Below are positions 3,196 to 59,013 of a stretch of DNA of 64,000 bases, piece by piece. The position numbers and the translations under genes were made by a program. The first letter of the stretch is position 1; each line of letters starts with the position of its first letter. A model generated the notes under the pieces. That model saw only the letters and a program-made list of their open reading frames with translations. It did no database searches and had not been told where the DNA came from. This DNA is from Syntrophobacterales bacterium (lineage in GTDB: Bacteria; Desulfobacterota; Syntrophia; Syntrophales; UBA5619), in the NCBI GenBank assembly GCA_019429105.1, contig JAHYJE010000015.1:1-64000 (forward strand), written 5' to 3'.

Positions 3196-5014
3196 CCTAT
3201 CCGCCTTTCACCGTATCTCATCCATTGTGAAAACTTGGGTGTTGTTCTCAAATATACTGAAAATCTATGTCCGGATAATGGGGAAGCTTACAGCGTCCAT
3301 CCAGATTATTGAAAAAGGGGTAACGGACTTTTTTGAGACCTGCGGTAATACGGTTTATGAAAGCGGAGCCATCGCCAAACTCGCCGTTTATTGCGGCAGT
3401 ATTGCCCGGCTGGAAGAAGAAGTATATCCGTATCTCACCGGGACAATGAATATCAGGCCGGATGAAATACTGAAATACCATAAAGGAAATAAAATCTATA
3501 AAACCACCAAAGAGGCGGAAACGGAATTTAATTCGCTGGATACGCCGATTTCAAAAAAGAAGATCATCCTGCTGGTTCAAATCGGGAAAGAAGGCTGGGA
3601 CTGCCGCAGCCTTACCGGCGTCATTCTTTCGCAAAAAGGCGATTGCCCGACCAACATGGTTTTACAAACTTCCTGCCGCTGTTTAAGGCAGGTTGACAGA
3701 GGCAAGCATGAAACCGCCGTTATTTGGCTCAATGAAGAGAATGCCAAGATCCTGGACAAACAACTGCAAGAGGAACAGAATACCAGCATTCAGGAACTCA
3801 CCACGCTAGGGAAAGACGGCGAGCCGGTCATGGTGGACCGCATTTCACGTATGGATTATCTCAAACTGCCGAAGGTTGATTTTTATCAACTCCATGTGGA
3901 ATACGAAACCATCGCTGTCGAAGAAGCGGCTAATCCCGGACAAAATTTGTCAAACGTGAATGTCAAGGATCATTTCGACACGGCCACGATCATTGAACGC
4001 GGCTTTTCCCCGGATGAATTAAAAACCAAGGATATCCTTGCCCGGATTGAAGGGGGACGCGCGGGATTCGATTTATGGATATGCGTCATTTCCCGTGAAA
4101 GTATGGGAAGCATCGCCAGAAGCGACCTATACCCGTACCAGCGTGAACTGAAAAGCATATTTGACGCAATTACTTTTGAAAAAGGCGCATCCCGTTATTT
4201 TAACAGCCTTTTTCGGCAGGATGAGATACGCGCCCGTATCCGCCTTTCCTTTCACAAACACCGCGAACTGGAAATAAAATCAGAAATTGTTCCGAAAAGT
4301 GCAAGTTTATTGGTTATTGAAAAACTTGCCCCAGTGGAAGAACAAGAGAAGCTGTATCCCAATGCTGCCGATGTGAAACAGATCGTACAGGCGGACGCAA
4401 CCGGCAAGGACATTGCCCTGCTCCAGAAAGAGGTGGAAGAAGCACAGAGAAAAATCCAGGAGTTTATCGCTTCTCAGCCGAATCCCGATTTGTTTGCTAT
4501 GGCGGGCTTCAGCGCGCAAACTGCAAAAATATGCTCAAAGACCGTAATGAGCAAAGATCGGACATTTCATTATCTCCCTTACAATTTCTCTCAAAGCCGG
4601 TTTGAATTAAACTTTCTGAAAGAAGTCATCTCGCTTACGACATTCACGAAAAATAACCTGGAAGTGTATTATAACGGCGAAGGGCATCTGACCGAATTCC
4701 GAATTGCCTGTTATTCTAAAAAAAATGAGCGCTGGCGGCGCGTCGGGCTTTACACCCCTGATTTTCTGGTCATCCGGCGTAAAGACGGAAACATCCATAA
4801 AATCCTGATTGTGGAAACCAAAGGAAGCGGTTTTGCTGCGCAGCCGAAGTTTATAGCGCGCAAGAGTTTTGTGGAGTCGGAATTCTTGCCTATGAATAAC
4901 GAGAAATTCGGCTATAACCGCTTCGACTATCTCTATCTCCCGGATGACCGGAAAATGGACGAAAACCTTCTGTTGTTCAAAACGAAAATTGATTTATTTT
5001 TTAAGGAGAATTAA
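3179..5014 (+). pseudogene. res: Type III restriction enzyme Res subunit, 5'-truncated
   Basis: Up to 611 codons, but only the back part of a Res subunit, which is normally over 900 residues. Family-like sequence begins near VYESGAIAKLAVYCGS (residue about 60). The second helicase domain is present (QIGKEGWDCRSLTGV and NMVLQTSCRCLRQV, motifs V and VI), as is a C-terminal PD-(D/E)xK nuclease signature (PDFLVIRR near 526, IVETKG near 544). The Walker A and DExH motifs needed for ATP hydrolysis are missing; the insertion element lies where they should be. The listed ATG sits in the terminator hairpin and is probably not a real start. Restriction is therefore most likely lost, while mod three bases downstream is intact. 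Confidence 0.8.
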
Positions 5015-5017
5015 GCC

Positions 5018-7099
5018 ATGCCCGTGAAATACATACCCTATTATCCCAATACCGTAACGGGACAGGCGATACTGGACAACATCACCCGCACCCGCAGGGT
5101 GTTGCGCTACCGGGACAATGGCAAAGTGGTTGACCGCATCAAACGGGGAATGCCGTATTATGAACTGGAAAAGATCGAAAGCGTGGGAAGCAATGTCGAT
5201 AATCTTCTCATCCGCGGCGAGTGCATTTCCGCCTGCGCTTACTTGCAAGATCAAGGCGTCAAGGTTGATCTTGTCTATATCGACCCGCCCTTTGCCAGCG
5301 GCGCGGATTACGCGAAGAAAGTGTACCTAAGGCGGAATCCTGAGTTTGCCGAAAAAATCGCCAACGCGGAAGAGGAAATGGATCTGGAAGAACTCCGCTC
5401 CTTTGAAGAAAAGATGTACGGCGACATCTGGAACAAGGAAGATTACCTGAACTGGATGTATGAAAATCTCACGGCCATTAAAAGTGTGATGAGTGAAACA
5501 GCCAGCATTTATGTGCACTTGGACTGGCATATCGGGCATTATGTCAAGGTGCTGATGGATGAGGTGTTTGGCGAGGATAACTATAAAAACGAACTGATAT
5601 GGCAAAAAACGACGGCGCCAAAGGCTCAATCCGGACAATTTGCTAATGTACACGATATGATATATCTGTACTCATGCACTGATGATTATCTATTTAATAA
5701 ACTTTACACAGAGTATAGCGAACAATACTTACAAGACTTTTATAAATATGAAACAACGGACGGTAGAAAATACAGGATTTCAGACTTTTCACAAGCTGGG
5801 CAAGGAAGCCCAATGTATTTTGGAAAAGACGGAAAATCACTTTTATTAGAGCCTCCATCAGGAAAACACTGGATATGGGGTCAAAATAAAATTACCGATG
5901 GTGTGATAAATAAACGTATTATTTTATCAACAAATAATGTCCCCGGATTAATACGTTATTTAGACGAAATGCCCGGGAATCCATTAAGAGATATATGGAC
6001 AGATTTAAGGGCAATAGGACCTGGGGCAAATGAGAATGCCAACTACGTCACCCAAAAGCCCGAAGCCTTGCTCGAAAGAATCATCAAGGCATCTTCCAAT
6101 GAAGGGATGATCATCGCCGATTTTTTCGGCGGCAGCGGTGTTGCGGCCCAAGTGGCGCATTACCTTGACCGCAAGTTTATTCATGTGGATGTGGGGATCA
6201 ATAGCATTCAGACCACGCGTGACCGGCTGATTGCCGCCGGAGCGCAATTTGATATTTACGATATTCGGGACGGTATATCGCTTTTCCGCAACCCCGTGCA
6301 GACCATGGATAAATTGAAACGCCTGATTGCCGGCCTGAAAAATGAGGATTCTATAGACAGCTTCTGGGAAGGCGCGGTGAACGACAGCAAACTCGGCCTT
6401 ATGCCGGTATATGTGCCGAACCTTCTTGACCACAGCACAAAGGTGCTCGACATACCGCTTATGAACCGCATCATGAACGAAGCGCTGCCCGATCTGCCGG
6501 ACGGCGTGAAGCAGGTCATCGTTTACTATGTGGACATCGAAAACGAGCCGGAACTGAAAAAGTTTATCGCCGACTGTAATGCGACCAATATTCAGATTGA
6601 ACTGCGGGATTTAAAGAGCATTCTCGATGAATGCGTTATCAACGATGAAGTGGATTATCAGCTCGAGGAAATGGAGAGCGGATTTGAAATAGAATTTAAG
6701 TCCTTTGTCAGCGACCGACTTATTCAGAAAATTGACGTCTACAACCAGAAAAAACTCTTAAGCGACGCTAAAAATGGATCGTTTGATGAAAACGGTTCTG
6801 CAAATGGCGATAACGGCAACGCCGAAAACGGCAATGGGAACGGCAGCAAAAAACCGTTTACTCCGATAGAAATCAGCAACAATGGGTTGGAACTAATCGA
6901 GCTTGTCAGCCTTGATTGTACAAATTCAGACGGCGTCTGGAAAAGCGATATGGAACTCAAAGTGGATAAGAACGGCTATGTCATTCTGAATGGCCGCAAG
7001 ACAAAGGAATACTGGAACGGCAAAATCGTTGCCGCAAAGAAGCCGTTGCGAATGAAGATACGGAATATCGCCGGAGACGAGTCTGTTATTAATTTATAG
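5018..7099 (+). CDS. mod: Type III DNA methyltransferase Mod subunit
   Basis: 693 residues, started by AAGGAG and an ATG three bases after res. Motif IV YIDPPF (Asp89) comes before the AdoMet motif DFFGGSG (about 368-374), the order of beta-class N6-adenine or N4-cytosine methyltransferases such as type III Mod. The segment between them, about residues 208-337 (bases 5640-6030), is the expected target-recognition domain and is much richer in A+T than the flanks, suggesting separate exchange. Near residues 587-612 is an Asn/Gly-rich linker, then a short C-terminal domain. With Res truncated this is probably an orphan methylase; it may still mark host DNA. Confidence 0.9.
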   Translation: MPVKYIPYYPNTVTGQAILDNITRTRRVLRYRDNGKVVDRIKRGMPYYELEKIESVGSNVDNLLIRGECISACAYLQDQGVKVDLVYIDPPFASGADYAKKVYLRRNPEFAEKIANAEEEMDLEELRSFEEKMYGDIWNKEDYLNWMYENLTAIKSVMSETASIYVHLDWHIGHYVKVLMDEVFGEDNYKNELIWQKTTAPKAQSGQFANVHDMIYLYSCTDDYLFNKLYTEYSEQYLQDFYKYETTDGRKYRISDFSQAGQGSPMYFGKDGKSLLLEPPSGKHWIWGQNKITDGVINKRIILSTNNVPGLIRYLDEMPGNPLRDIWTDLRAIGPGANENANYVTQKPEALLERIIKASSNEGMIIADFFGGSGVAAQVAHYLDRKFIHVDVGINSIQTTRDRLIAAGAQFDIYDIRDGISLFRNPVQTMDKLKRLIAGLKNEDSIDSFWEGAVNDSKLGLMPVYVPNLLDHSTKVLDIPLMNRIMNEALPDLPDGVKQVIVYYVDIENEPELKKFIADCNATNIQIELRDLKSILDECVINDEVDYQLEEMESGFEIEFKSFVSDRLIQKIDVYNQKKLLSDAKNGSFDENGSANGDNGNAENGNGNGSKKPFTPIEISNNGLELIELVSLDCTNSDGVWKSDMELKVDKNGYVILNGRKTKEYWNGKIVAAKKPLRMKIRNIAGDESVINL

Positions 7100-7358
7100 C
7101 AGATACTTGCACTGTTGTAACAGGGGGCTTGCACCCGGCTGATAGTCGTTCTTGTAAACAGGAACATGCGCCAATTGGCAGGAGCGGGGTTGAGAAACCG
7201 CGGCACGGGGTCTTTGTCTATTCTGTAGCTTCCGCCCTCTTCGAAGGTGCGGAACAGATTCTTTCCGATAAAGAGTAGCGTTGGGGTGCTTTGAAAATAA
7301 TTCGGGGCATCTGCCGCCAGATTGAGTGGTACGGCGACCACAAGGAACGTAAAGGGCT
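7100..7358. other. Gap between mod and flavodoxin, no supported gene
   Basis: On the minus strand an open frame runs from 7341 through this gap into mod; its N-terminal part (for example RIDKDPVPRFLNPAPANW) reads more like protein than random sequence but has no recognisable family. It may be a decayed gene. No terminator or clear promoter was seen. Confidence 0.3.
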
Positions 7359-7814
7359 ATGACGAAAACACTGATTGTTTATCACTCGCAGACGGGAAAC
7401 ACCGAAAAAATGGCGCAGGCCGTTGCCGAGGGGGCCCGCCTCATTGACGATACCGAGGTGCTGATAAAAAGGGCTCAGGAGGCCACAGTGGAAGACCTGT
7501 TGGCGGCAAATGGCGTGGCGCTTGGAACCCCGGTAACGTTTGGATATATGTCTGGAATGATAAAGGATTTTTTTGACCGTACCTTTTATCCTGCCCAGAA
7601 CAAGGTGTTCATAAAACCGTATGTGGTCTTTATCAGCGCCGGCAACGATGGCGAGGGCGCCCTGAAGAGCGTCGAGCGGATCGCCTTGGGCTATAAGTTT
7701 AAAAAGGTTCACGAACCGGTTATAGCGGCGGGGCCCCTTACCGAAGAGATCCTGGAAAAATGCCGCAACCTGGGAGGCGTGCTGGCCGGCGGCTGTCAGA
7801 TGGGAATTTTCTGA
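7359..7814 (+). CDS. Flavodoxin-family protein
   Basis: 151 residues with an N-terminal beta strand followed by the FMN phosphate loop SQTGNTEK, and GTPVTFGYMSGMIKDFFDR, the segment that in WrbA/flavodoxin-like proteins covers the isoalloxazine ring. Predicted cytoplasmic FMN-binding electron carrier or NAD(P)H:quinone oxidoreductase-like protein. No cysteine cluster, unlike the flavoprotein at 16416-17051. It stands alone: the next gene, tupA, is about 345 bases away. The partner is unknown. Confidence 0.85.
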   Translation: MTKTLIVYHSQTGNTEKMAQAVAEGARLIDDTEVLIKRAQEATVEDLLAANGVALGTPVTFGYMSGMIKDFFDRTFYPAQNKVFIKPYVVFISAGNDGEGALKSVERIALGYKFKKVHEPVIAAGPLTEEILEKCRNLGGVLAGGCQMGIF

Positions 7815-8159
7815 GCAGGCTCCAGGAACATTAGACAAGGAATATCAAGGAAAGCAGGCATTATCAAGCGATTGCATGATTGTTGCGTTGGAAGGGGGAA
7901 AGCGAAAGACTTGGAAATTGCTGGTGATTGCCACGTATGATAATCAGGGAAAATGGCGCGAGCTGTTGCGCTTATAGTTCGTATTTGTACGAATTGGTAA
8001 TTAGAAGTTAATATATGTCTTTTTCCTCTTGTAATTTTCTCCTCCATCACTTATACAGATCGCCTGTTTTTGAGAAGCGCCCCTCCGGGGGAATGTTTCC
8101 AATAGATGCACTGGGCGAATGGATAAGCGCGGGAGAACTTTATTATGGAGGAGAAAAAA
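7815..8159 (+). promoter_or_regulatory. Leader region of the tungstate transporter operon
   Basis: No gene seen. It contains a 6-bp inverted repeat TTCGTA-tttg-TACGAA at 7978-7993, followed by an A+T-rich stretch, then a small GC hairpin CCCC-tcc-GGGG near 8081-8091 and the tupA ribosome-binding site GGAGGAG at 8147-8153. The dyad is a candidate operator for a tungstate- or molybdate-responsive regulator, but no regulator gene is nearby. I looked for a Moco/Tuco riboswitch and could not recognise its conserved core. Confidence 0.35.
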
Positions 8160-9011
8160 ATGAAACAAAGATTAAAAAGCGGTTGGATGGGAGCGATTGT
8201 CGCTCTCGCATTGATAACAGTTATGGCGCTGCCTTCCTTCGCGGCGGGCCCGGCGCAGAGGAACATAATCCTGGCCACGACAACCAGCACGCAGGATTCG
8301 GGGCTCTTGGACGTCCTGATCCCGGTCTTTGAAAAGAAGACCGGTTATTTTGTCAAGACAATCGCCGTTGGTTCCGGTCAGGCGATGGCGATGGGGCAAA
8401 AGGGCGAGGCGGATGTGCTATTGGTGCATTCGCCCGAGGCGGAGAAAAAGTTCATGGCGGAGGGATACGGGGTGAACCGCCTGATCGTGATGCACAACGA
8501 TTTCGTTGTAGTGGGCGCGCCTGCCGATCCGGCCGGGATCAAAGGGGCAAAAAGCACGCCGGAGGCCTTCGGTAAAATTGCTGCCGCGGGCTCATTGTTC
8601 CTGTCGCGGTCGGACAATTCCGGCACCCATGCCAAGGAAAAGGGCGTCTGGAAGGCCGCGGGGATCAACCCCGAGGGGCAGAAATTCTATCAGCAAACCG
8701 GCCTGGGCATGGGGCAGACGCTGAACGTCGCGGCCGAGAAGAAGGGATATACACTGGCCGACCGGGGAACCTACCTTTCCATGAAAAAGAATCTGGGCCT
8801 GGATATCCTGAAGGAGGGCGACCCGATCCTGCTTAACGTCTATCATGTGATTCAGGTCAATCCGGCGAAATGGCCGAAAGTAAATACCGAAGGCGCGAAG
8901 GCCTTTTCCGACTTCATGGTCTCCGCAGAAACTCAGGGAATCATCAAGACCTTCGGCATCGCCAAATTTGGAGGGGCGCTCTTCTTTCCCGATGCGGGCA
9001 AGAAGGAATAG
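8160..9011 (+). CDS. tupA: Tungstate ABC transporter substrate-binding protein
   Basis: 283 residues from ATG 8160, chosen because GGAGGAG lies seven bases upstream; an in-frame ATG five codons earlier overlaps that site. A signal peptide (KR-rich start, hydrophobic core, cleavage near SFAAG) directs it to the periplasm. The mature start has the TTTSTQDSGLLD block characteristic of TupA, which distinguishes it from ModA, plus SRSDNSGTH and the AMGQKGEADV region. Captures tungstate and passes it to TupB/TupC, 16 bases downstream. Fits the tungsten-type aldehyde oxidoreductase at 55263-57203. Confidence 0.92.
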   Translation: MKQRLKSGWMGAIVALALITVMALPSFAAGPAQRNIILATTTSTQDSGLLDVLIPVFEKKTGYFVKTIAVGSGQAMAMGQKGEADVLLVHSPEAEKKFMAEGYGVNRLIVMHNDFVVVGAPADPAGIKGAKSTPEAFGKIAAAGSLFLSRSDNSGTHAKEKGVWKAAGINPEGQKFYQQTGLGMGQTLNVAAEKKGYTLADRGTYLSMKKNLGLDILKEGDPILLNVYHVIQVNPAKWPKVNTEGAKAFSDFMVSAETQGIIKTFGIAKFGGALFFPDAGKKE

Positions 9012-9026
9012 CGGAAACGGGGCAAT

Positions 9027-9725
9027 ATGGAACTGATTATTGAGGGGTTCAGGCAGGCCCTTTATCTGATCTTTACGCTGGATCGGGAAGTCATCGGGAT
9101 CACGCTGCTGTCGCTCAAGGTTTCGGGAAGCGCGACCGTGCTCAGCATGGTCGGCGGCATCTTTGTCGGCACAACTGTCGCGCTTGCCCGCTTTCCGGGA
9201 AGGCAGTTGGTCGTGAGCCTGATCAACACCGGGATGGGACTCCCGCCGGTCGTCGTCGGTCTCTTCGTGACGATTTTCCTCTGGCGCAACGGTCCTTTAG
9301 GTTATCTGGATATCCTCTATACGCCGACTGCGATCATCCTGGCCCAGACCGTCATTGCCGCCCCGATCGTCACGGGCATAACGCTCGCGGCCATCCAGAA
9401 CCTGCCTCCCAATCTTCGCCTCCAGATCCTCGCCCTGGGCGCCACGCGCCTCCAGATGGTCTGGCTGCTGGTGAAGGAGGCGCGCCTGCCGCTTTTGGCC
9501 GCCGTGATGGCCGGCTTCGGCGGCGTCATTTCGGAGGTTGGCGCCTCCATCATGGTCGGCGGGAACATCAAGGGCTACTCCCGTGTCCTGACGACAGCGA
9601 CGGTGATGGAGACGAGCCGGGGGAATTTCGAAATCGCCATCGCCCTTTCGGTAATTCTGATGCTGCTCTCCTTTCTTGTGAACGCGCTCCTCACGAGGAT
9701 TCAGCAGCGGGAGAGACCCCGATGA
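9027..9725 (+). CDS. tupB: Tungstate ABC transporter permease
   Basis: 232 residues, all-helical inner-membrane protein with several membrane spans; GASIMVGGNIKGYSR near residue 180 corresponds to the EAA coupling loop that contacts the ATPase. Lies 16 bases after tupA and overlaps tupC by four bases (ATGA), so the three are co-translated. Family assignment rests on this arrangement and on the TupB-like TVIAAPIVTG core. Confidence 0.9.
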   Translation: MELIIEGFRQALYLIFTLDREVIGITLLSLKVSGSATVLSMVGGIFVGTTVALARFPGRQLVVSLINTGMGLPPVVVGLFVTIFLWRNGPLGYLDILYTPTAIILAQTVIAAPIVTGITLAAIQNLPPNLRLQILALGATRLQMVWLLVKEARLPLLAAVMAGFGGVISEVGASIMVGGNIKGYSRVLTTATVMETSRGNFEIAIALSVILMLLSFLVNALLTRIQQRERPR

Positions 9726-10858
9726 GTCACGCGGGCGAGCCGGAGGTTTTACTCAAGGCCGAGAATTTGCTGGTGCGCCGGGGCGGGGCGACCGTGCTCG
9801 ACATTCCCGAACTGAACGTTTTGCCGGGACAGTTCCTTGTTCTGATCGGGCCGAACGGCGCGGGGAAATCGACGCTGTTGTTGACCCTGGCCGGTCTGCT
9901 TGCCCCGGTCCGGGGAAAGCTGCTGTTTCGCGGCGCCGGTATTGGCGCAAGGGGTTTCGACTATCGCCGCCAGATTGCGATGGTTTTTCAGGAGCCGCTT
10001 TTGTTTGATGCGACCGTCTTTGATAACGTCGCGGCGGGTCTGAAAATTCGCGGGCTGGGGAGAGCGGAAATTGGCCGGATGGTTCCCGAATATCTCGAGC
10101 GCTTCGGCATAGCACATCTGGCGAAACGTTCCGCCCGGAAACTCTCCGGCGGGGAGGCGCAGCGCACGAGCCTCGCCCGCGCCTTCGTCAACAAACCCCA
10201 GATCATTTTCCTCGACGAGCCCTTCTCCTCGCTCGACCCGCCAACCCGCGACGCCCTTACCGGCGATCTCGAGCGGATCATCCGCGAAACCGGGACAACG
10301 GCGGTTGCCTCGACCCACGACCAGACGGAGGCGCTCCGGCTGGCCAACCGTCTGGCGGTAATGGCGGAAGGACGGATCGTACAGATCGGTACGCCCGCCG
10401 AGGTGATGTACCGGCCCATAAGCGAGACCGTCGCCTCCTTTGTGGGTGTGGAAACGGTACTGCGGGGACGGGTTGTGCGGTTTGCCGAAGGGGTCTTTAC
10501 TGCTGCCGTGGAGGGGGGGGGAATCGAGGCGGTGGGGAATGTCCGGATGGGCGAGGAGGTGCTCTGCTGCATCCGACCGGAGCATGTAACCCTTTCCACC
10601 AATACCCCTACCCAGACTACAAGCGCCCGGAACGTCTTTTCCGGAACAATCCGGGAGATTACACCGCTCGGCCTTTTCCAGCGGATCCGCGTTGATTGCG
10701 GATTCGGCCTGGTCGCCTATGTGACGCGCCAGTCACTCGAAGAACTCCATCTTGAGGAGGGAATGAGAGTCACGGCCTCCTTCAAGGCAACGTCCGTCCA
10801 CGTCATCCGCCGCGGCGGCGGGACAGGAATCGCTCTTTCTGCGCCTCCCCAGCCCTGA
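9722..10858 (+). CDS. tupC: Tungstate ABC transporter ATP-binding protein with TOBE-like C-terminus
   Basis: 378 residues. Walker A GPNGAGKST (43-51), signature LSGGEAQR (about 141) and Walker B IIFLDEP (about 161) are intact. At about 240-375 there is an extra beta-rich domain of the TOBE/MOP type seen in ModC and WtpC (an IRPEHV stretch followed by a second half), which in relatives binds oxyanion and can inhibit transport. TupC proteins as I know them are often shorter, so this gene may combine transport with internal feedback. That regulatory role is inferred. Confidence 0.88.
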   Translation: MSHAGEPEVLLKAENLLVRRGGATVLDIPELNVLPGQFLVLIGPNGAGKSTLLLTLAGLLAPVRGKLLFRGAGIGARGFDYRRQIAMVFQEPLLFDATVFDNVAAGLKIRGLGRAEIGRMVPEYLERFGIAHLAKRSARKLSGGEAQRTSLARAFVNKPQIIFLDEPFSSLDPPTRDALTGDLERIIRETGTTAVASTHDQTEALRLANRLAVMAEGRIVQIGTPAEVMYRPISETVASFVGVETVLRGRVVRFAEGVFTAAVEGGGIEAVGNVRMGEEVLCCIRPEHVTLSTNTPTQTTSARNVFSGTIREITPLGLFQRIRVDCGFGLVAYVTRQSLEELHLEEGMRVTASFKATSVHVIRRGGGTGIALSAPPQP

Positions 10859-47645: not shown

Positions 47646-48764
47646 CTACGGGAGATTTTCGCTTCCCCGCAGCCGCGTTGCCGGGAAAAGCCCCTGCTTA
47701 TAGGCTTCTGCGCAGTACCAGTGAGGCGCCCAGAGATCATGGTCTCTGTAGTAATTCTGCGCGATGCAGCTTCCGAGGCAGACGTTTTTGAGAAGGCATT
47801 CTGCGCAGATCCCCCGAAATCGCGAGGGAAGTCCGGCGCGAATATCCTTCAGCACCGGGGAAGTTTCCCATACCTCCTTAAGTGAGTTCTGGCCGGCGTC
47901 GCCGAAGACAAGTTCGGAAACGGTCTCGCCGATGCCGCAGAGGGCGTACGCGCCGCTGGCAAGCACCCCCAGAATGCCGGATATTCCACAGGTGTGACAG
48001 CCGTCACCGGTTTTGGCGTTGAACATTCTTCTCAGCGAGCGGAAAGCCGGCGGCTGATCGTAGTATAAAGACAGGCTGGTTGTTGCTGACAACTCTTCGT
48101 CCACCCATTTGCCGAGCAAGATCAGTTCAGCGATGTCAACCGTTTCCCCTGCGGCAAACATCTGTTCGCCCCGCGCGGTCGGCTGGATTATGTTGAATTT
48201 GACGGAGCCCGCGCCGAGCGCTTCAGCCATGCGGACAATCTGCGCAAGCTGATCTTTATTCCGCTGCATGACCGTCATGATGATCTGAGGACGCAGCCCT
48301 GCTGCGACCAGGTTTTTAATGCCGGCCACAGCCTCGTCGAAGCAACCCTTTTTGCCTCTAACCCACTCGTGCACCTCCGGGTCGATTGAATCGATGCTAA
48401 CCGAGACAAAGGCGTTTCCCACAGAAGCGATTTTTTCGGCTATTTCAGAAGAGCACAGGGTGCCGTTCGTTTCCACGACGAGACGCAATCCCCGTTTTTG
48501 CACAGCGCTGATCAAGTCGGATAGCCGGGGATGCAGCAGCGGCTCGCCACCGGTAAATTTTACCCCGTTTAGCCCCAGGGCGCCCGCCTGATCGAGAATC
48601 TTCGTGAACAGCGCCGAATCCAGATATGACGAAGATTGGGAGGCCGGAAGGTAATGGGGTTCTATCCAGCAATGACGGCAGCGCAGATTGCAGTCGCTGG
48701 TCAGATAAAAATATAGCTGGCGCAGCGGGTAAAATGGCTTTACATCCGGCTCGTTATTGGTCAT
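47646..48764 (-). CDS. scmF: Radical SAM/SPASM peptide maturase, ScmF-like
   Basis: 372 residues. SDCNLRCRHCW is the CxxxCxxC radical SAM cluster; KFTGGEPLLHP binds AdoMet; the C-terminal SPASM region has CHTCGISG, CGIGE and CAECLLKNVCLGSC for auxiliary Fe-S clusters. PLRQLYFYLTSDCNL resembles ScmF of the SynChlorMet cassette (two PqqE-like enzymes, a PqqD-like protein and ScmC, described in syntrophs). Overlaps scmE by four bases. Expected to modify a ribosomal peptide; the chemistry is unknown. Which of the two maturases is E or F is from memory. Confidence 0.8.
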   Translation of the reverse strand: MTNNEPDVKPFYPLRQLYFYLTSDCNLRCRHCWIEPHYLPASQSSSYLDSALFTKILDQAGALGLNGVKFTGGEPLLHPRLSDLISAVQKRGLRLVVETNGTLCSSEIAEKIASVGNAFVSVSIDSIDPEVHEWVRGKKGCFDEAVAGIKNLVAAGLRPQIIMTVMQRNKDQLAQIVRMAEALGAGSVKFNIIQPTARGEQMFAAGETVDIAELILLGKWVDEELSATTSLSLYYDQPPAFRSLRRMFNAKTGDGCHTCGISGILGVLASGAYALCGIGETVSELVFGDAGQNSLKEVWETSPVLKDIRAGLPSRFRGICAECLLKNVCLGSCIAQNYYRDHDLWAPHWYCAEAYKQGLFPATRLRGSENLP

Positions 48765-49894
48765 TGCGCTGTCACCGGCCGATGATTAAGCAAACATTCC
48801 GGCAGACATCCTCCCTGCTGTTCGAAAAGGCGCAGACAGGCGTCTGGGCTCGGGCTGTTGACCTTGCCCGTCAGATTGTAGGACAAGGCAGGACAGTTGC
48901 CTGTGCAATAGTCCCGATAAGGGCAGTCTTGACAGAGTGCAAACGAGGAAAGGGGAATAAGTTTGCGGTTTCTCAGATTCCACAACGCTGGATGATTTTG
49001 CCAGAGGTCGCAGAGATCATCGCGATTGATTTGCCCCAGGACTATGTGGCCCAACTGTGAGCAGGGGACATAGGCCCCGTCCGCCCGTACAGAAATGCTC
49101 TGAAACGGGCATCCGCAACCTGTCAGAAATCCCCGGCCCGCCATGGGTGGCTTTTTCTCCCGGCCGGCCTCCTTCATCTCGGCCCACATGCGCGCGTCGG
49201 CAAGGGGGCCGGCGGTGGCGCTGATGCGGTTGCCGTATTTATCGCTGAGGCCAAGCAGCGTTTCCATCGCCGCCGAGCGTTCCGCGACGGTCAATTGCGT
49301 CTGTTCGGTATTTTTCCGACAGAGGCCCATATACGAGGCGGCGTTGGTTGAAAAAGAGGGCAGGCCAATCTCTTCAAGAAGCAGTGCGGCGATTGCTTCC
49401 AGTTCGTGGACATTTTTACGGTGGATCGTGACGCGCACGGTTACCGGCAGATTGAACTTCTGCAACATTCTGATCCCGCCTAAGGCCTTGACAAAATTTC
49501 CCTCGCCCCGAAAGGCGTCATGGGTAATGTCAAGCGCGCCGTCAAGGGAAACCTGAACAGAGTTGCAACGTCCGGTAGCGGCAAGAAAAGCTGCCATCTC
49601 CGGTTTGATCAAGGTGCCGTTGCTGAGAATCGAAAAGCGCATCCTGTTTTCGACGATGGAGGCGATGATTGCCTGCAGATCTTGCCGATAAAAAGGTTCT
49701 CCTCCGGAAAGGGTGACATTCATCACCGCGCAGCGCTTGAGCTCAGAAAAAAAGCGCCGCCAGTCGTCCAGGGGCATATCCCGGCCAACGTCTCCAGGCG
49801 CCGAGAAATGGCTGCAATAGGTGCAGCGCAGGTTGCACCCATTGGTGATCTCGATATCAACAGAGCGGGGCGTTTTCATCAGGGAGCGCATCAT
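48761..49894 (-). CDS. scmE: Radical SAM/SPASM peptide maturase, ScmE-like
   Basis: 377 residues. TNGCNLRCTYCSHF carries the radical SAM cluster, VTLSGGEPFYRQDL the AdoMet site, and the C-terminal SPASM part has GCGCPFQ, PCSQLGH, CQDCPYRDYCTGNC and a final Cys pair. PRSVDIEITNGCNL is the start I associate with ScmE. Four-base overlaps with both scmD upstream and scmF downstream show strict co-translation. Acts in the cytoplasm on the precursor peptide, presented by a PqqD-like protein. Confidence 0.82.
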   Translation of the reverse strand: MMRSLMKTPRSVDIEITNGCNLRCTYCSHFSAPGDVGRDMPLDDWRRFFSELKRCAVMNVTLSGGEPFYRQDLQAIIASIVENRMRFSILSNGTLIKPEMAAFLAATGRCNSVQVSLDGALDITHDAFRGEGNFVKALGGIRMLQKFNLPVTVRVTIHRKNVHELEAIAALLLEEIGLPSFSTNAASYMGLCRKNTEQTQLTVAERSAAMETLLGLSDKYGNRISATAGPLADARMWAEMKEAGREKKPPMAGRGFLTGCGCPFQSISVRADGAYVPCSQLGHIVLGQINRDDLCDLWQNHPALWNLRNRKLIPLSSFALCQDCPYRDYCTGNCPALSYNLTGKVNSPSPDACLRLFEQQGGCLPECLLNHRPVTAQ

Positions 49895-50316
49895 GGAGCG
49901 ATTTCTCCGTCCCCGGCGGCGAGGCCAAGTCTGGCAATTTCCCGGATAAACTCTTCTACCTGACTTTCCACCTCAGCCGGCACGTCCTCAGCCGCTTCCC
50001 TGATTGCCTCGGTTATTGCCGCCAGGGTCTGCTGGCCGTCAAGCAGTTTCCAGATGAAAACCCCCCAAGGGTTCAGCGTAAAGGTATTGCCTGTGTCGGG
50101 ATTAAACAGCAGCGCCCAATCGTCAAACTCCTCTCTGAGGACAATCAAGGGTTTGGCTGTCATTTTTATGTCAGAGTATCCACCCACCAGTAATTTCTCC
50201 GTATCCGGCTTGTTCCCCTTCTTTTCAAAAGGCGGGACGGCCAGCTTCCTTTGCTGTAAAATTTTCAGTTCTTTTTCTTTCGGCAATTTGCTATATTGAC
50301 CAACAGAAAAAAGCAA
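49891..50316 (-). CDS. scmD: PqqD-like peptide-recognition protein, ScmD-like
   Basis: 141 residues. After a basic 50-residue lead, KPLIVLREEFDDWALLF, NPDTGNTFTLNPWG and FIWKLLDGQQTLAAI are the PqqD/RRE blocks that bind leader peptides. Longer than free-standing PqqD (about 95). First gene of scmD-scmE-scmF on the minus strand and divergent from the phosphatase gene, 72 bases away. Confidence 0.82.
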   Translation of the reverse strand: MLFSVGQYSKLPKEKELKILQQRKLAVPPFEKKGNKPDTEKLLVGGYSDIKMTAKPLIVLREEFDDWALLFNPDTGNTFTLNPWGVFIWKLLDGQQTLAAITEAIREAAEDVPAEVESQVEEFIREIARLGLAAGDGEIAP

Positions 50317-50388: not shown

Positions 50389-50841
50389 ATGAATGTTTTA
50401 TTTGTCTGCACCGCAAATATTGTCAGAAGTTTTATGGCGGAGGCCATACTTACGCACAAACTCAAAATGAAGGGGAGAAGGGATATAGCCGTTTCGTCTG
50501 CTGCTCTGATCGACATGAAGGGGAAGCAGGCAGACCCCTTTGCCGTCAAAATACTTGAAGAAAACGGGATTGAAGGCGGCAGTCATATCTCGAGGTTGCT
50601 GACAGATGACATGGTTGTCAATGCGGATTTAATCGCGGTTATGGAGGAAGGGCACCGAACGCAGTTGTGCGAAAGATACCCTGACGCGGCGGTAAAGATA
50701 CGGCTTCTCAAATCTTTCGTAAAAGGATATCAAGCTGTTGACTCAGACATTAAGGATCCTTACCACTTGACGATCTACCATTACCGGCTCTGTTTTGCGG
50801 AGATTTCCCTGGCCGTAGGCGGCATGCCGGGGGTACTGTAG
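50389..50841 (+). CDS. Low-molecular-weight phosphotyrosine phosphatase-like protein
   Basis: 150 residues. FVCTANIVRSFMAE is the P-loop CX5RS at the N-terminus, normally CxGNxCRSP; Cys and Arg are kept while several others vary. A general acid Asp-Pro occurs in IKDPYHLTIYH, and HISRLLTDDMV is the helix before the substrate loop. So catalysis is plausible. Related folds are arsenate reductases and protein tyrosine phosphatases. Inside the peptide cassette and near an HprK-like kinase, it could reverse a phosphorylation; that pairing is inference. Weak ribosome-binding site. Confidence 0.8.
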   Translation: MNVLFVCTANIVRSFMAEAILTHKLKMKGRRDIAVSSAALIDMKGKQADPFAVKILEENGIEGGSHISRLLTDDMVVNADLIAVMEEGHRTQLCERYPDAAVKIRLLKSFVKGYQAVDSDIKDPYHLTIYHYRLCFAEISLAVGGMPGVL

Positions 50842-51132: not shown

Positions 51133-51534
51133 ATGAAAAGGGCAAGGAGAAATTTCCTGGCGATTGCGGGCGGGGTAGCCGTAATGTTGCCGATAACGAA
51201 GTCCCCGACGCCAGCAAACGTTTATGAACACCTGCAAGGGCTCTGGAGTTGGTATGAAACAGAGGATTTGTTAAACGGAATGCCCGTTAGACAAAGCGGC
51301 GTTTCACTGCACAAAGGCGACGCTTTTCCGGTTCTTTCCGGTCCCGGAAGGGGACTGATACGCCTCAATCCGACGGCTGTGCGGATATGGGAGATGTGCG
51401 ACGGAAAAAACAGTCCGGCAAACATAGCCAGGACTATCAGCGAAAATTGCGATGTTTCCCCTGGCGTTTGTTTTAAGGACGTGATCATTGCGCTCAGAAC
51501 TTTTAAACGACAGGGCCTGATTGTTATGACGTGA
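51133..51534 (+). CDS. PqqD-like protein with Tat-like N-terminus
   Basis: 133 residues from ATG 51133. The N-terminus KRARRNFLAIAGGVAVML has a twin-arginine RRxFL motif and a hydrophobic core like a Tat signal. The remainder carries PqqD-type blocks: PVLSGPGRGLIRLNPTAVRIWEM, then a DG turn and a final three-helix region ending KRQGLIVM. PqqD proteins normally work in the cytoplasm. Either this domain is exported, or the N-terminus is a membrane anchor or a chance resemblance. Lies 70 bases before the candidate precursor peptide on the same strand. Confidence 0.65.
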   Translation: MKRARRNFLAIAGGVAVMLPITKSPTPANVYEHLQGLWSWYETEDLLNGMPVRQSGVSLHKGDAFPVLSGPGRGLIRLNPTAVRIWEMCDGKNSPANIARTISENCDVSPGVCFKDVIIALRTFKRQGLIVMT

Positions 51535-51604
51535 AGAAGATATTGACTCGCCAAAGGCGAGGAGTTTTGGGCAGCAACGATTCTTATATTTAGGTGAAAG
51601 TCCT

Positions 51605-51970
51605 ATGACGACCAGCAAAAAATTGCCCTATGAACCGCCGCTCATCATTGATTTGAGCGGGAGCACCGCCTATGCCGCAAAACCATGCAGAACCGGCGCC
51701 GCAATATCGGGAGGGGGAAACTGTTTGCCGGGTGGGTCTCCCCTGCAGGCGTGCCTGCAGGGGTCCGCGGCCACCGGCGGGGAGTGCAAACCGGGGAATT
51801 TTGCGTCCGAATTCTGCCTGACAGGCGGCTCTGCGCAAATCAGCACGTGCAAACCGGGGGCTGCCGCAAACACCAATTGCCTGTCGGGTACAGTTGCAGC
51901 AGGAACCTTGTGCCAAAAGGGCTCAGCGGCCGGAGGAGTCTGCAACCGCGGGAGCGCTCCGCTTACATAG
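51605..51970 (+). CDS. Candidate precursor peptide with nine CxxG repeats
   Basis: 121 residues. The N-terminal 25 form a leader-like region with YEPPLIIDL, the YxxPxL pattern recognised by PqqD/RRE domains in several RiPP families. Cys occur at 28, 40, 50, 61, 71, 82, 92, 103 and 113, each in C-x-x-G (CRTG, CLPG, CLQG, CKPG, CLTG, CKPG, CLSG, CQKG, CNRG), with spacing alternating 10 and 11 after the first. Residues between are Gly, Ala, Ser and Thr. A small hairpin (CTCGCC-aaa-GGCGAG, 51547-51561) and an AGGTG ribosome-binding site lie upstream. Flanked by both maturase operons. Modification is inferred; no transporter or protease gene is adjacent. Confidence 0.8.
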   Translation: MTTSKKLPYEPPLIIDLSGSTAYAAKPCRTGAAISGGGNCLPGGSPLQACLQGSAATGGECKPGNFASEFCLTGGSAQISTCKPGAAANTNCLSGTVAAGTLCQKGSAAGGVCNRGSAPLT

Positions 51971-52091: not shown

Positions 52092-52982
52092 TTACAGCAG
52101 TGTAAGGAAACTGTTGTCCTTCTGAAAATGCATATCAAACGAGGGAATTGACGCGCACAAATCGCAGCAACAATTAAATACAGAGGTCTTTAATTCCCGA
52201 TCCATCAAGTTGAAATAGTGGATGTGGAAGAGCAGCAGTTCCGCCAGCGCTGCTTGCCTGTCCCTCCTATTCAGGGCGAGCGGTTCCGCTTTTTTCAGGA
52301 AGATAATCCTTGCCAGCGGGCATTCTTGCCGATAATGATTTTTCCCTTTTCTTGCGAGGCTGTTAATCTGGGAAAACGGGGATGGGTGGATTTTGAACAA
52401 CCCCCCCCTTTCTTCAACCACTGTTGCATCATCGGAAAGCACATCCCCAATCGGGACGTACCCGGCCACGGTGCTTTTCCCGGCGCCGGACAACCCTAAA
52501 AAAAGATTCCCCTGACGGTTGATCCGCAGACCCGCCCCGTGTACCAGCAGCCTTTTATTGTCCACCATCAACAACGAAGTCAGGATAAAAAGCAGTTTGT
52601 ACAAACTGCCCATGAGGAAATTTTCTCCTTTCGACCGGAAAAGGAATATATGAAATTTGTGTGAATGGACATTGTACGCAAGCACTCCGTTCAAGAATCC
52701 GATCAGCAGAGTTTTTTCCGATATCGGATAGCGCTTGGCGACATGGTTGATGATGCGTGTCGTTTCTCTGTCTTTGGCTGTTGATATCCGTAGGGGTTCA
52801 GCTTTGAATTTGCGGAGATGTACAAAATTTTCATAGGAAAGGGCAACTTCTGTCGCAGCATCGCCTCTGGGCAGCAGAAAGCCGCGGAAGAGCCCTTTGA
52901 GCGGTGTCAAAAGTGGAGCCGCCTTTTCATCCCCGCTTATCGCAACTGCTATTCCGGCGATGACAATGATCAGTTCTTTCAT
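52092..52982 (-). CDS. scmC: HPr kinase-like protein, ScmC-like
   Basis: 296 residues. The C-terminal half has LGLSGAGKSTVAG (Walker A) and GDVLSDDATVVEE, the P-loop and Asp-Asp region of HprK/PEP-carboxykinase-type kinases; LVHGAGLRINRQGNLF precedes it. The N-terminal half is unassigned. HprK-like proteins recur in lasso-peptide and other RiPP clusters, where some phosphorylate the peptide. ScmC is the fourth SynChlorMet component; assignment is from fold and context. Starts directly at the stop of the HD-GYP gene. Confidence 0.75.
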   Translation of the reverse strand: MKELIIVIAGIAVAISGDEKAAPLLTPLKGLFRGFLLPRGDAATEVALSYENFVHLRKFKAEPLRISTAKDRETTRIINHVAKRYPISEKTLLIGFLNGVLAYNVHSHKFHIFLFRSKGENFLMGSLYKLLFILTSLLMVDNKRLLVHGAGLRINRQGNLFLGLSGAGKSTVAGYVPIGDVLSDDATVVEERGGLFKIHPSPFSQINSLARKGKNHYRQECPLARIIFLKKAEPLALNRRDRQAALAELLLFHIHYFNLMDRELKTSVFNCCCDLCASIPSFDMHFQKDNSFLTLL

Positions 52983-54071
52983 CTACTTGGGCAGTTCCCA
53001 TTCGGCGACCACGTCAACAATATTAAGAACGTTGCTGGTTGACAGATCCGTGTGTTCTTCCTCGACGCTCCGATTGCCCAGACCGTCGAAAATAATTCTT
53101 ACCAAGGGTTTTACTGGTTGCGACTTGTTGGTTTTTATCACCCGGCCAATGGCCCCGTTGTTTAACTTGACGTAGCTGCCCACCGGGTAAAGCGACATCT
53201 CGTCGAGAAAAACCTTGAGAATCCGAGGCGCAAACAATCGCTCTTTCGCTTCAATCAATTGTCTGACGGAGGTAAATTGCAGCAGCGCCTTTTTCTGGGG
53301 TCGATTATGGGTCATTGACTCATACGAGTCACAAATACCTATTATTTGTGCATATTCACCTATCTTTTCACCCTTTAGTCCCTGCGGATAGCCTTTTCCG
53401 TTCTCCCGTTCGTGGTGCTGATAAACCGCCTCTACAACGGCGGGGAAGTCCTTCTGGAAGGGCAGCAGGAGATCACGGCCGTTTTCCGGATGTTTTTTTA
53501 TGGCGGCAATCTCCTCATCTGTCAGACTGCCCGTTTTGCCAATTATGGCATCCGGCACCAGAAACATTCCTAAGTTTTGCAGAAGCGCAGCCAGGCCCAG
53601 TTCCGTAAGCCGTTTCCGGAGATAATGCAGGCGCAATCCTATTTTAAGGGCATAGATCATGGTGTGGATCGGCTGCAGGATATAATAGTCCTGCTCGTTA
53701 GCAAATGTGAGCATCCTCGGATTAATGCCGGCGAGAACCTCCGGTGAATCGACTATTTTGGCGATCATTTGAATAGCGGGATCAAGTCCAACGCCAGCGC
53801 CATCCCCGATGCCGACGCGGACATCCATCATATATTCCTGCAGTGCTGAGTAAATGGATTCCGTATCAAGACTATTATTTAAGATAAGTGTTTTTCCGCC
53901 GTTCTTGGGGGCGGTGGGATCATCTACAGCGGGTGCGTCCGGGGGCGTAGGGGGCGGGGCGCCGAAAATCCGGCTGAAACGAAAGGGCGTGGCGCTGCGG
54001 TCGCCTTCGGCCTTGGGTGTTTCATCTTGACCCCTTACGGTATCGGTTGCTCTCATAATAATCGCCGGCAT
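52983..54071 (-). CDS. HD-GYP domain protein with degenerate metal site
   Basis: 362 residues. After a Pro-rich, probably disordered lead (about 15-60), a c-di-GMP phosphodiesterase-type HD-GYP domain is recognised by HHERENGKGYPQGL and GICDSYESMTHNRP. The first His (IHTMIYAL) is present, but the diagnostic HD pair is replaced: LLQNLGMFLV stands where LLHDIGK is usual. Metal binding and hydrolysis are therefore doubtful; a sensor or scaffold role is possible. A C-terminal PilZ-like beta region (YPVGSYVKLNNGAIGRVIK) follows. Between two cassette genes on the same strand. Confidence 0.82.
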   Translation of the reverse strand: MPAIIMRATDTVRGQDETPKAEGDRSATPFRFSRIFGAPPPTPPDAPAVDDPTAPKNGGKTLILNNSLDTESIYSALQEYMMDVRVGIGDGAGVGLDPAIQMIAKIVDSPEVLAGINPRMLTFANEQDYYILQPIHTMIYALKIGLRLHYLRKRLTELGLAALLQNLGMFLVPDAIIGKTGSLTDEEIAAIKKHPENGRDLLLPFQKDFPAVVEAVYQHHERENGKGYPQGLKGEKIGEYAQIIGICDSYESMTHNRPQKKALLQFTSVRQLIEAKERLFAPRILKVFLDEMSLYPVGSYVKLNNGAIGRVIKTNKSQPVKPLVRIIFDGLGNRSVEEEHTDLSTSNVLNIVDVVAEWELPK

Positions 54072-54086
54072 CTTTCTTTATTTATT

Positions 54087-54395
54087 TTAGCGTTCACGAA
54101 ATCGTGACAATGTATCAGCGTCTGCAGATTCTCTTTTCAAAAAGGACATTCCCAGCATGCTGGTCAGAAAACTCTGAATGTCCTGTTCCAGCCGTGCACC
54201 AGGAACGTCATAAGCAGCGGCCAATTGAGCCGTTATCTCCTCCTTGGTATTGCTGCCGTTGCAAAGCTCCAAGAGCAGCGCCCCGGTCTTGTTGGCATAC
54301 ACGAGCTTTCCGGATTCTGGATCAAACAGGTAGGCGCCGTCGCCTTCTTTTCTAAAAATTATTCGCTCATTGCGAATAAAGATTGTTTCTTCTAT
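54087..54395 (-). CDS. PqqD-like protein with no standard start codon
   Basis: 102 residues if started at ATA 54395. The reading frame encodes IFRKEGDGAYLFDPESGKL and VYANKTGALLLELCNGSN, PqqD blocks that lie upstream of the first in-frame ATG (54302), so the shorter 71-residue form would lack half the domain. No ATG, GTG or TTG occurs in frame before an upstream stop, but AGAGG lies at normal distance from ATA (codons ATA GAA GAA). The start is therefore either AUA or a sequence change from ATG. First gene of the operon with the HD-GYP and HprK-like proteins. Confidence 0.6.
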   Translation of the reverse strand: MEETIFIRNERIIFRKEGDGAYLFDPESGKLVYANKTGALLLELCNGSNTKEEITAQLAAAYDVPGARLEQDIQSFLTSMLGMSFLKRESADADTLSRFRER

Positions 54396-54743: not shown

Positions 54744-55241
54744 TCAGGCTCTTTCTTCTATTGCCAGAGCTTGTTTCCCCGCCGCAGACTGACGCGCGGC
54801 GCCCTCTCTTTTCTTGAGCGAACTGACCTTGTCCGCCGTGACAAACTCAATAGCTTTTACTTCGCAAAACCGGGCGCACTGAGGATCGCCGTCGCATAAA
54901 TCGCATTTAAAAACCTTGCGCGCCATCGTATTGTAATTCATCGCCCCGAAGGGACAGATGCTGACACACGAACGACAGCCGATACAGACATCGTAATTGA
55001 CCTTCATAAAGCCGAATTCCTTGTCCCGGGAAATGGCGCCCACCGGACAGACGCTCTGACAGGGCGCATCCTCGCACTGCTGGCAGATCATCGGAACATA
55101 TCGGCCTTCATCCTCCCATTTCACGACTTGGATTCTGCTTTTTGACGGGTTGGACACCCCTTCATGTTTAACAGAACAAACGAGTTCGCAGAGGCGACAG
55201 CCGGTGCATTTTTCGTAATTAACCGTCAGAATTTTCTCCAT
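54744..55241 (-). CDS. Four-cluster ferredoxin-type electron-transfer subunit
   Basis: 165 residues. Four cysteine groups, CTGCRLCELVC, CQQCEDAPCQSVCP, CIGCRSCVSICP and CDLCDGDPQCARFC, indicate up to four 4Fe-4S clusters, as in HycB/AorA-type electron-transfer subunits. GGAGAG ribosome-binding site. Lies 21 bases after the aldehyde oxidoreductase gene and should accept electrons from it. BamB/BamC of benzoyl-CoA reductase have a similar layout, but the other bam genes are missing. Confidence 0.88.
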   Translation of the reverse strand: MEKILTVNYEKCTGCRLCELVCSVKHEGVSNPSKSRIQVVKWEDEGRYVPMICQQCEDAPCQSVCPVGAISRDKEFGFMKVNYDVCIGCRSCVSICPFGAMNYNTMARKVFKCDLCDGDPQCARFCEVKAIEFVTADKVSSLKKREGAARQSAAGKQALAIEERA

Positions 55242-55262
55242 TATTCTCTCCTCTGTTTTTAT

Positions 55263-57203
55263 CTAAAGCAAATGGGTTGGCTCTTGCTCCAGCCCCAGTC
55301 GTGTTAAGGTTGCTTGCGTCGGGACGCCTTCTTTGTCCCAGCCGTGATGTCCATAGAACTCATCAACCATAACGTCGAACTTCTTCCGATCGATCATGAT
55401 GCCGATAACATCCGGCGCTCCTCTGAGACAAGGCTCATCAAAATAACGATGATTGAGCATATCGCCCTTGACCAGATCGTAGCGCGTCAGCCCCTCCCGC
55501 AAATTGAAAAGCCTCTCCATATTGTTGCTGCGCTCGGCAGCGTCCCAAATATCCTTGGGGGTCAGCTCAAGACCCGTGTTGAGATAAATCGCCCGGGGCC
55601 AATCCTCGAAATTCGGCAACGTCGCCCCTAAAAACGTAGTGTGATATTTGCAGATTCCTATAGAATCAACCGCCATGTAGCAGTTTTCCTGCCAAAAAAC
55701 CTGCCAGGGTTTCCCAATATACTCCATTGAATCGGAGGAGAGAGGGCCTTCGTAGGGGACCGGGCTGCTGTAAATCTTGCGCAGCACGCTCTCGGGAAGG
55801 TGATACAGGTCGATGGCAGGCCGACTCCGCAAATGGTCGGAACCGCGGGACGAGGTTGCTATATTCAAAGCGAGACCGGGGGTGGCTCGTTCATCGGAAT
55901 GGAGGTTGTTCATCCCTTTGACCTGGATCAGATAATCGAAAGAATGCTTGCCGATTTTCTCGGATGCCGGGATTCCCCCATCGGCCAGAACATTGCCCAG
56001 CCAGCCTTTGCGGGTACAAATGCGGTGGATCATCTCTATTAAAGCGTCCGCATTGCTGAACCGGAGATCAATGCCGTCGGTTTCCTTGCTGGTGATGATT
56101 CCCAATTCGTAGAGTTCCATCGCCCAGGAGATGATGCTGCCGATTTCCAGATTATCCACGCCGTACTGATTCACCAGATAGTTGGCGGTCAGAACCGTCT
56201 CGGCCTTGTTGCAATCCGGCTCACTGCCGAAAGCGCCGAAGGACGTATATTCGGGTCCCTCATTGTATATCCCGGCATAAGGGCCGGATGGTATTCTGTA
56301 CTGGGCGCGGCAATGCACCTGGCAGCCGAAACACCCCGTCATGTGATACGGCCCCATGGTTTCGGTCGCGATATCGTCCAGTGATTCCGGTTCAAGTTCG
56401 TCAGCATTCTCCATCTGATTGAACTGGAAGTTCCTGGTGCGAATGCCTCCCCAGCTATTGGTGGCCCCCCAGATAAAATGCGTTCCCAATGTGCCCTGGG
56501 TTTTGTTAACCTTGGCGGTGGTGATCTGCTCGATGAATTTTTTGTTGAATTCCAGAGCTTCCAACGGGTGGGCGATTTTGACATCCATTGTGCCGCGGAC
56601 GGCAACAGCCTTGAGGTTTTTCGAGCCCATCACGCATCCCATGCCGGTGCGTCCGCCGGCATTCTTAATTCCGGTCATCACATTGGCATACGTTACAAGA
56701 TTTTCTCCGGCCTGACCGATGACGGCGCTTTTTATTTCCTGATCCCCCAATTCCTCGCGGATGGCCCATTGAGTCTCCGTTGATGATTTGCCCCATAATT
56801 TCACGGCGTCGCGGATTTCAATCTGGCCGTTGTGGATCCACAGATAGACTGGTTTCTCCGCCTTGCCGGTAATGACCAGGTGGTGGAAGTCCGCCCAGGC
56901 CATTTCCGCGGAGAAAAACCCCCCCATGTTCGTACTCCCCAAAAGACCGGTAAGGGGGGATTTGGCCATGATGTGCGTTCGCGATGTAGCGGAGGCGCAG
57001 GTGGCTGTAAGCAATCCCCCGCTGATGATTAAGGTGTTTTCCGGACCAAGCGGGTCACAGCCTTGCGGTGCGTTATTGAAAAGCAGATAGGCGTCCAACC
57101 CCCGGCCGCCTATAAATTTCTTTCTTACTTCCAGGGGAATGGGCTTGATCTCTGATTTACCGGTAGAGAGATCAATGTATGCTATTTTCCGGTCCAATGC
57201 CAT
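55263..57203 (-). CDS. aor: Tungsten-dependent aldehyde:ferredoxin oxidoreductase family protein
   Basis: 646 residues. KSPLTGLLGSTNMGGFFSAE is the N-terminal pterin-binding region, RTGMGCVMGSKNLKA a second one, and GCFGCQVHC with a distant Cys (SIGICKYHT) supplies the 4Fe-4S ligands. Interconverts aldehydes and acids, or acts on a related acyl substrate, with ferredoxin as electron partner. Preceded by a zinc-ribbon gene and followed by a ferredoxin. The tungstate transporter at 8160-10858 would supply the metal. Exact substrate not predictable. Confidence 0.9.
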   Translation of the reverse strand: MALDRKIAYIDLSTGKSEIKPIPLEVRKKFIGGRGLDAYLLFNNAPQGCDPLGPENTLIISGGLLTATCASATSRTHIMAKSPLTGLLGSTNMGGFFSAEMAWADFHHLVITGKAEKPVYLWIHNGQIEIRDAVKLWGKSSTETQWAIREELGDQEIKSAVIGQAGENLVTYANVMTGIKNAGGRTGMGCVMGSKNLKAVAVRGTMDVKIAHPLEALEFNKKFIEQITTAKVNKTQGTLGTHFIWGATNSWGGIRTRNFQFNQMENADELEPESLDDIATETMGPYHMTGCFGCQVHCRAQYRIPSGPYAGIYNEGPEYTSFGAFGSEPDCNKAETVLTANYLVNQYGVDNLEIGSIISWAMELYELGIITSKETDGIDLRFSNADALIEMIHRICTRKGWLGNVLADGGIPASEKIGKHSFDYLIQVKGMNNLHSDERATPGLALNIATSSRGSDHLRSRPAIDLYHLPESVLRKIYSSPVPYEGPLSSDSMEYIGKPWQVFWQENCYMAVDSIGICKYHTTFLGATLPNFEDWPRAIYLNTGLELTPKDIWDAAERSNNMERLFNLREGLTRYDLVKGDMLNHRYFDEPCLRGAPDVIGIMIDRKKFDVMVDEFYGHHGWDKEGVPTQATLTRLGLEQEPTHLL

Positions 57204-58218: not shown

Positions 58219-59013
58219 GTGTATTTGGAATATTGGGGTTTGCAAAAATATCCTTTTGAAAATACGCCTGACCCGGAGTTTTTTTTCTTTTCGCCAGAAC
58301 ACGAAGAGGCGCTCTCGCGGCTCACCTATGGAGTTAGACGCAACAAGGGCGCTTTACTGCTGACCGGAGCAATCGGCTGTGGCAAAACATTGCTAAGCCG
58401 TGTTTTCATAAAACAGATGCAACATGAAAATATTGATATCGGTCTGATTGCCAACCCCTCCCCGGAACCATTAGGTTTCCTTAGTGAAACCCTTTACCAG
58501 TTCGGTCTTAACTCACAAGCCGCAACCAAAACGGAAATGCTCAAAATCCTGAACAACAAACTGATGGAAAATTCCAACAAAAGCGCTATTTCCCTGCTCA
58601 TCATTGACGAGGCTCAGACAATATACAAGGAGACCTTTGACGAGATTCGCATGCTCTTGAATTTTCAGATGAACGACCGCTATTTATTAAATTTGCTCTT
58701 CCTGGGGCAGCCAGAGTTGCGGGAGATGATAGTAGGCAATAAACAACTCGATCAGCGCATCGCCATCCGCTATCACCTCAACCCATTGAGCCGCAGCGAT
58801 ACGACAAGGTATATACTTTTTCGTCTGGATAAAGCGGGACTTAAAAAAAATATCTTTTCCGATGAAGCGTTGGAAACCATCTACGCATACTCTGGAGGCG
58901 TTCCTCGTAAGATAAACAATATCTGTGACTTGTCCCTGTTAATCGGTTTTAGCTTAAAAGTAGAGCTAATCGATCAGCGTATCGTCTCGGGGATCATCAA
59001 AGATTCATTATAA
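58219..59013 (+). CDS. ExeA-like AAA ATPase
   Basis: 264 residues from GTG 58219 (preceded by GGGTGAG). YWGLQKYPFENTPDPEFFF is the ExeA/GspA opening, GAIGCGKT the Walker A motif and LLIIDEAQT Walker B; LGQPELREMI and SGGVPRKINNICD follow as in ExeA and PEP-CTERM/exosortase-associated ATPases. Such proteins usually serve secretion or polysaccharide export, or peptidoglycan insertion of secretins. None of those genes is here, so the job is open. Shares a superfamily with the transposition ATPase at 2159-2965. Confidence 0.85.
   Translation: MYLEYWGLQKYPFENTPDPEFFFFSPEHEEALSRLTYGVRRNKGALLLTGAIGCGKTLLSRVFIKQMQHENIDIGLIANPSPEPLGFLSETLYQFGLNSQAATKTEMLKILNNKLMENSNKSAISLLIIDEAQTIYKETFDEIRMLLNFQMNDRYLLNLLFLGQPELREMIVGNKQLDQRIAIRYHLNPLSRSDTTRYILFRLDKAGLKKNIFSDEALETIYAYSGGVPRKINNICDLSLLIGFSLKVELIDQRIVSGIIKDSL

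Follow-up and report, generated by a model that had tools for sequence, protein, structure and literature searches.

The 121-residue peptide encoded at positions 51605 to 51970 (+ strand) of the window, the 64,000-nucleotide stretch of Syntrophobacterales DNA analysed here, carries a regular ladder of cysteines and lies within a SynChlorMet-type radical SAM RiPP cassette, of which we are highly confident that it is the precursor. Two neighbouring radical enzymes, probably together with a kinase, almost certainly turn the peptide into a cross-linked product. As the best overall explanation, we propose with moderate confidence that it is a SynChlorMet-type RiPP precursor whose CxxG rungs are modified by ScmE and ScmF.

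The precursor peptide and its cassette

The precursor gene is preceded by a Shine-Dalgarno-like AGGTGA (positions 51592 to 51597, + strand) that was read in the sequence 7 bases 5' of the ATG. Its translation consists of a leader of about 25 residues (YEPPLIIDL...AYA) and a cysteine-ladder core with nine CxxG rungs, the border near residue 25 being a putative one placed by conservation. Cysteines occur at residues 28, 40, 50, 61, 71, 82, 92, 103 and 113, and all nine open a CxxG motif. The preliminary description had correctly listed the last eight and their alternation by 10 and 11 residues, leaving out Cys28. This first cysteine stands 12 residues before Cys40, after which the gaps are 10, 11, 10, 11, 10, 11 and 10, so that seven of the eight gaps measure 10 or 11 residues. 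When the core was shuffled 200,000 times, seven such gaps never arose and six arose twice. Since the rungs differ in sequence from one to the next and use mixed glycine codons (GGG, GGC, GGA and GGT), the ladder is not the result of recent DNA slippage. No Pfam family covers the peptide, and no relative of it was found in viral contigs.

Membership of the SynChlorMet group (NCBIfam TIGR04248-TIGR04252: ScmA, C, D, E and F) is indicated foremost by three genes on the - strand whose products exceed the curated cut-offs. These encode the radical SAM/SPASM enzymes ScmF (47646 to 48764; TIGR04251, 541.8 bits, cut-off 400) and ScmE (48761 to 49894; TIGR04250, 566.6 bits, cut-off 400), both with a CxxxCxxC motif, and the PqqD-type peptide-binding protein ScmD (49891 to 50316; TIGR04248, 106.5 bits, cut-off 100). 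The locus also shares an ScmA-like leader and an ScmC-like kinase with SynChlorMet, but both proteins score below their equivalog cut-offs. For the precursor, identified as ScmA-like from homologue alignments and a weak match to TIGR04252, the score is 18.4 bits against a cut-off of 35; the 49-position model covers residues 9-58, i.e., the leader and the first rungs, and leaves the long ladder outside. Fourteen of 19 homologues matched this model at E-values up to 1, while no peptide reached its cut-off in a scan of the whole order, so the current ScmA model overlooks these precursors. A search of a literature library for SynChlorMet or ScmA/ScmE found no paper naming the cassette. We know of no product of a SynChlorMet cassette, which has been catalogued through protein models.

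The ScmC/HprK-like kinase (52092 to 52982, - strand; TIGR04249, 29.4 bits, cut-off 125 not reached) has intact H148, G163, K169, S170, D184 and D185, and an alignment of 15 sequences shows full or nearly full conservation of its active-site residues. Unlike SynChlorMet as catalogued, the window adds three further proteins. One is an HD-GYP-type protein adjoining the kinase (52983 to 54071, - strand; PF13487, 91.4 bits), which is conserved beside the ladder group. Another is a Wzb-like low-molecular-weight tyrosine phosphatase (50389 to 50841, + strand; PF01451, 100 bits; its best NCBIfam match is Wzb, under that model's cut-off), which adjoins the cassette in relatives too. The third is a second PqqD-type protein (51133 to 51534, + strand; PF05402, 48.2 bits) with a twin-arginine-like hydrophobic N-terminal segment (ARRNFLAIAGG) that is conserved in an alignment of 11 sequences. 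Judging from this N-terminus, the protein may reside at the membrane or be exported, a location that would be unusual for the PqqD-type family. A third PqqD-type protein is encoded at 54087 to 54302 (- strand; PF05402, 45.7 bits). Further away, an XrtA-type AAA ATPase (58219 to 59013, + strand; TIGR03015, 243 bits, cut-off 324.5 not reached) has strong homologues in ten related loci; it adjoins the cassette in relatives and probably belongs with it. We recognised neither a leader protease nor an exporter of its own in the window cassette, which counts against our overall explanation. By eye, positions 54744-57203 contain a 4Fe-4S ferredoxin-like ORF and an aldehyde ferredoxin oxidoreductase-like protein, both probably without a connection to the cassette. 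Antisense ORF clusters that overlap the enzymes were discarded as artefacts, and so were mixed groupings of ABC ATPases.

Ladder homologues and co-occurrence with ScmE

Across 34 ladder homologues, between 4 and 12 cysteines are present; the number differs even within the genus, with nine in the window peptide and eight in a relative. Glycine occupies position +3 after 97% of the 265 cysteines in these homologues, alanine or proline occupies position +6 after 82%, the second most fixed position, and 90% of all gaps measure 10 or 11 residues, counts that come from sequences of common ancestry and not from independent events. The order of the gaps is likewise non-random, with 114 alternating against 48 same, a result matched by none of 5,000 gap-order shuffles. 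In an alignment of 19 precursors, Y9, E10, P12 and the Cys/Gly pairs are invariant.

The 21-residue unit with two CxxG motifs, as first proposed, holds in the main group but is not universal. Homologues L052 and L067 have 10-residue gaps alone, and the sister precursors L026, L027, L028 and L109 have an irregular cysteine spacing that is common to their group (for example 6, 12, 6, 9, 7, 2, 3, 1, ~17, 2, 10, 10). The enzymes of this sister group are the same as those of the ladder loci, so its irregular spacing counts against our overall explanation.

Cysteine-rich peptides sharing the window-type leader adjoin ScmE in relatives, and the precursor adjoins parts of the ScmC-F set in nearly all related loci. 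We determined how far the two genes co-occur by whole-genome searches, because scanning genome contigs with the ScmE sequence alone matched only the same-genus record. ScmE exceeded its cut-off in 18 of 61 relatives and, among the 155 genomes of the order, in 28; at 1e-50 it was found in 35 of the 155, and the precursor profile matched 33. Both were present in 30 genomes, with the precursor alone in three and ScmE alone in five (Fisher p = 1.6e-23, kinship ignored). In the three precursor-only genomes, the kinase, ScmF or the second PqqD-type protein adjoins the peptide, and at least some of these cases therefore look like assembly gaps. Among the ScmE-only genomes, the contig of G035 stops just past ScmE, and G025 has a precursor of the irregular type. 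The ladder precursors L094 and L100, from genomes G029 and G059, lie on contigs that differ from those of ScmE, and in these two genomes the precursor may be unlinked to the enzyme.

Candidate chemistry of the rungs

We looked for precedents among known RiPPs. In streptosactin, a GggA/GggB sactipeptide, thioethers join a cysteine to the residue at +3 (Cys31-Gly34 and Cys25-Ser28; PMC8172795), the same spacing as in every rung of the ladder. For this reason we favour a bond from Cys to Gly(+3), though only tentatively; that the rungs carry a thioether of some kind is fairly likely. As in streptosactin, a repeated Cys-x-x-acceptor spacing accompanies a radical SAM/SPASM enzyme, and unnested rings are possible. 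Streptosactin is a product of 14 residues with two rings made by one enzyme, whereas the window family has up to 12 rungs, two enzymes and separate PqqD proteins, and its linkage is proposed from the spacing. Tested against the StsB sactipeptide maturase model (NF045574, cut-off 625), ScmE and ScmF scored 91.9 and 101.7 bits, respectively, both far under the cut-off. Ranthipeptides such as SCIFF and freyrasin also have a cysteine-rich repeated core modified by a radical SAM/SPASM enzyme, but the acceptors in freyrasin are Asp, and the rungs here have no conserved Asp.

The CxxG motif fits streptosactin-type chemistry, but it would also suit a different chemistry or the binding of metal. ScmE and ScmF could modify the rungs in another way, by a bond to a different residue (e.g., the Ala at +6), by epimerisation or by oxidation of the cysteines. 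SPASM enzymes catalyse several chemistries, the cassette has two different radical SAM enzymes, and the high conservation of A/P at +6 would suit such a reaction. Glycine at +3 is nevertheless far more fixed and agrees with the solved precedent, and we regard these other modifications as unlikely. Alternatively, the cysteines might remain free within a regular scaffold, either as ligands of a metal or of iron-sulfur clusters or paired in disulfides, while the radical enzymes act elsewhere on the peptide. The regular spacing and the close cysteine pairs of the sister group are compatible with this, but in almost all genomes the conserved Cys and Gly are accompanied by radical SAM enzymes. A profile search of solved structures, moreover, gave weak matches alone (a zinc-finger RNA-binding protein, a spike glycoprotein and antibodies, at E-values of 0.02 or worse). 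Free cysteines are thus improbable. The evenly placed thioether sites suggested in the preliminary description are supported indirectly by the adjacent radical SAM/SPASM pair, the strict CxxG and the genome co-occurrence; the chemical linkage itself is what we infer.

The same description had proposed a beta-helix-like rod with a 21-residue coil per two cysteines. While the 10/11 alternation beyond chance would suit such a fold, AlphaFold2 predicted almost no secondary structure for the window peptide (pLDDT 33, no strand of three or more residues), which is weak evidence because the alignment held two sequences, and modifications were absent from the model. Homologues with uniform 10-residue or irregular spacing also argue against the rod, which we consider very improbable.

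Returning to the modification of the rungs by ScmE and ScmF, maturation might proceed as follows. A PqqD-type protein would bind the leader (YEPPxIIDL) and present the cysteine-rich core to the two enzymes, which would act once for each rung. Each cysteine would most likely become a thioether, for which the fixed glycine at +3 is the best candidate acceptor, and the outcome would be a series of small, separate rings, one per 10-11 residues. Because glycine is fixed at +3 of each ladder cysteine, this is a sharp chemical prediction. The HprK-like kinase would probably phosphorylate a serine, a candidate being that of the GGSP rung, and sugar may be attached by a nucleotidyltransferase. Cleavage, perhaps directly behind the conserved AxA, would then remove the leader, and the product would be exported, probably to act at the cell surface.

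Parts of this scheme have parallels in modified lasso peptides (paeninodin, BsfA and pseudomycoidin). Lasso precursors carry a YxxPxL leader motif, and both their phosphorylation and the removal of the leader are aided by a PqqD-type B1 protein (PMC10368454); the invariant Y, E and P of the ladder leaders resemble this motif. The window kinase keeps the active-site residues on which the lasso peptide kinase BsfK depends. In pseudomycoidin, phosphate and hexose are added through the joint action of a kinase and a nucleotidyltransferase, which yields a phosphoglycosylated peptide (PMC8498205), and a nucleotidyltransferase is found in relatives of the window cassette. Unlike these systems, the cassette has radical SAM enzymes, and no lasso B2 or C genes were among its identified genes in the window.

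Exopolysaccharide genes near the cassette

In six related loci (L023, L030, L032, L033, L073 and L079), the cassette is found with a nucleotidyltransferase, Wza-like and Wzc-like exopolysaccharide proteins and an XrtA-type ATPase. A nucleotidyltransferase, a Wza-like and a Wzc-like protein also lie beside the cassette in L038. The nucleotidyltransferase belongs to PF14907, as confirmed with Pfam for L030, L032 and L023. This neighbourhood is suggestive of a link between the cassette and exopolysaccharide, and because it recurs in several relatives, the product may be a component of the cell surface, as opposed to an antibiotic that diffuses away. A surface or exopolysaccharide role is possible, although we suggest it with some reservation. 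Such linkage to exopolysaccharide export would be a first clue to the function of SynChlorMet cassettes.

A more specific proposal is that of a long peptide in which as many as 12 separate thioether rings, each spanning four residues, follow one another periodically. It would bear phosphate and sugar, leave the cell together with exopolysaccharide and serve in the cell surface as a structural element or an anchor, not as a diffusible antibiotic. In this full form the proposal is speculative and rather unlikely; if true, it would describe a repeating cross-linked peptide serving as surface material.

Other arrangements were found as well. Several other loci have an ABC transporter with a membrane domain and a nucleotidyltransferase instead of the Wza/Wzc set. 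The window's own genome splits the set, which also counts against our overall explanation, with the ATPase and phosphatase in the window and the nucleotidyltransferase, Wza-like and Wzc-like genes on contig C40, where they are consecutive (L111, positions 4950-9950; genome G000).
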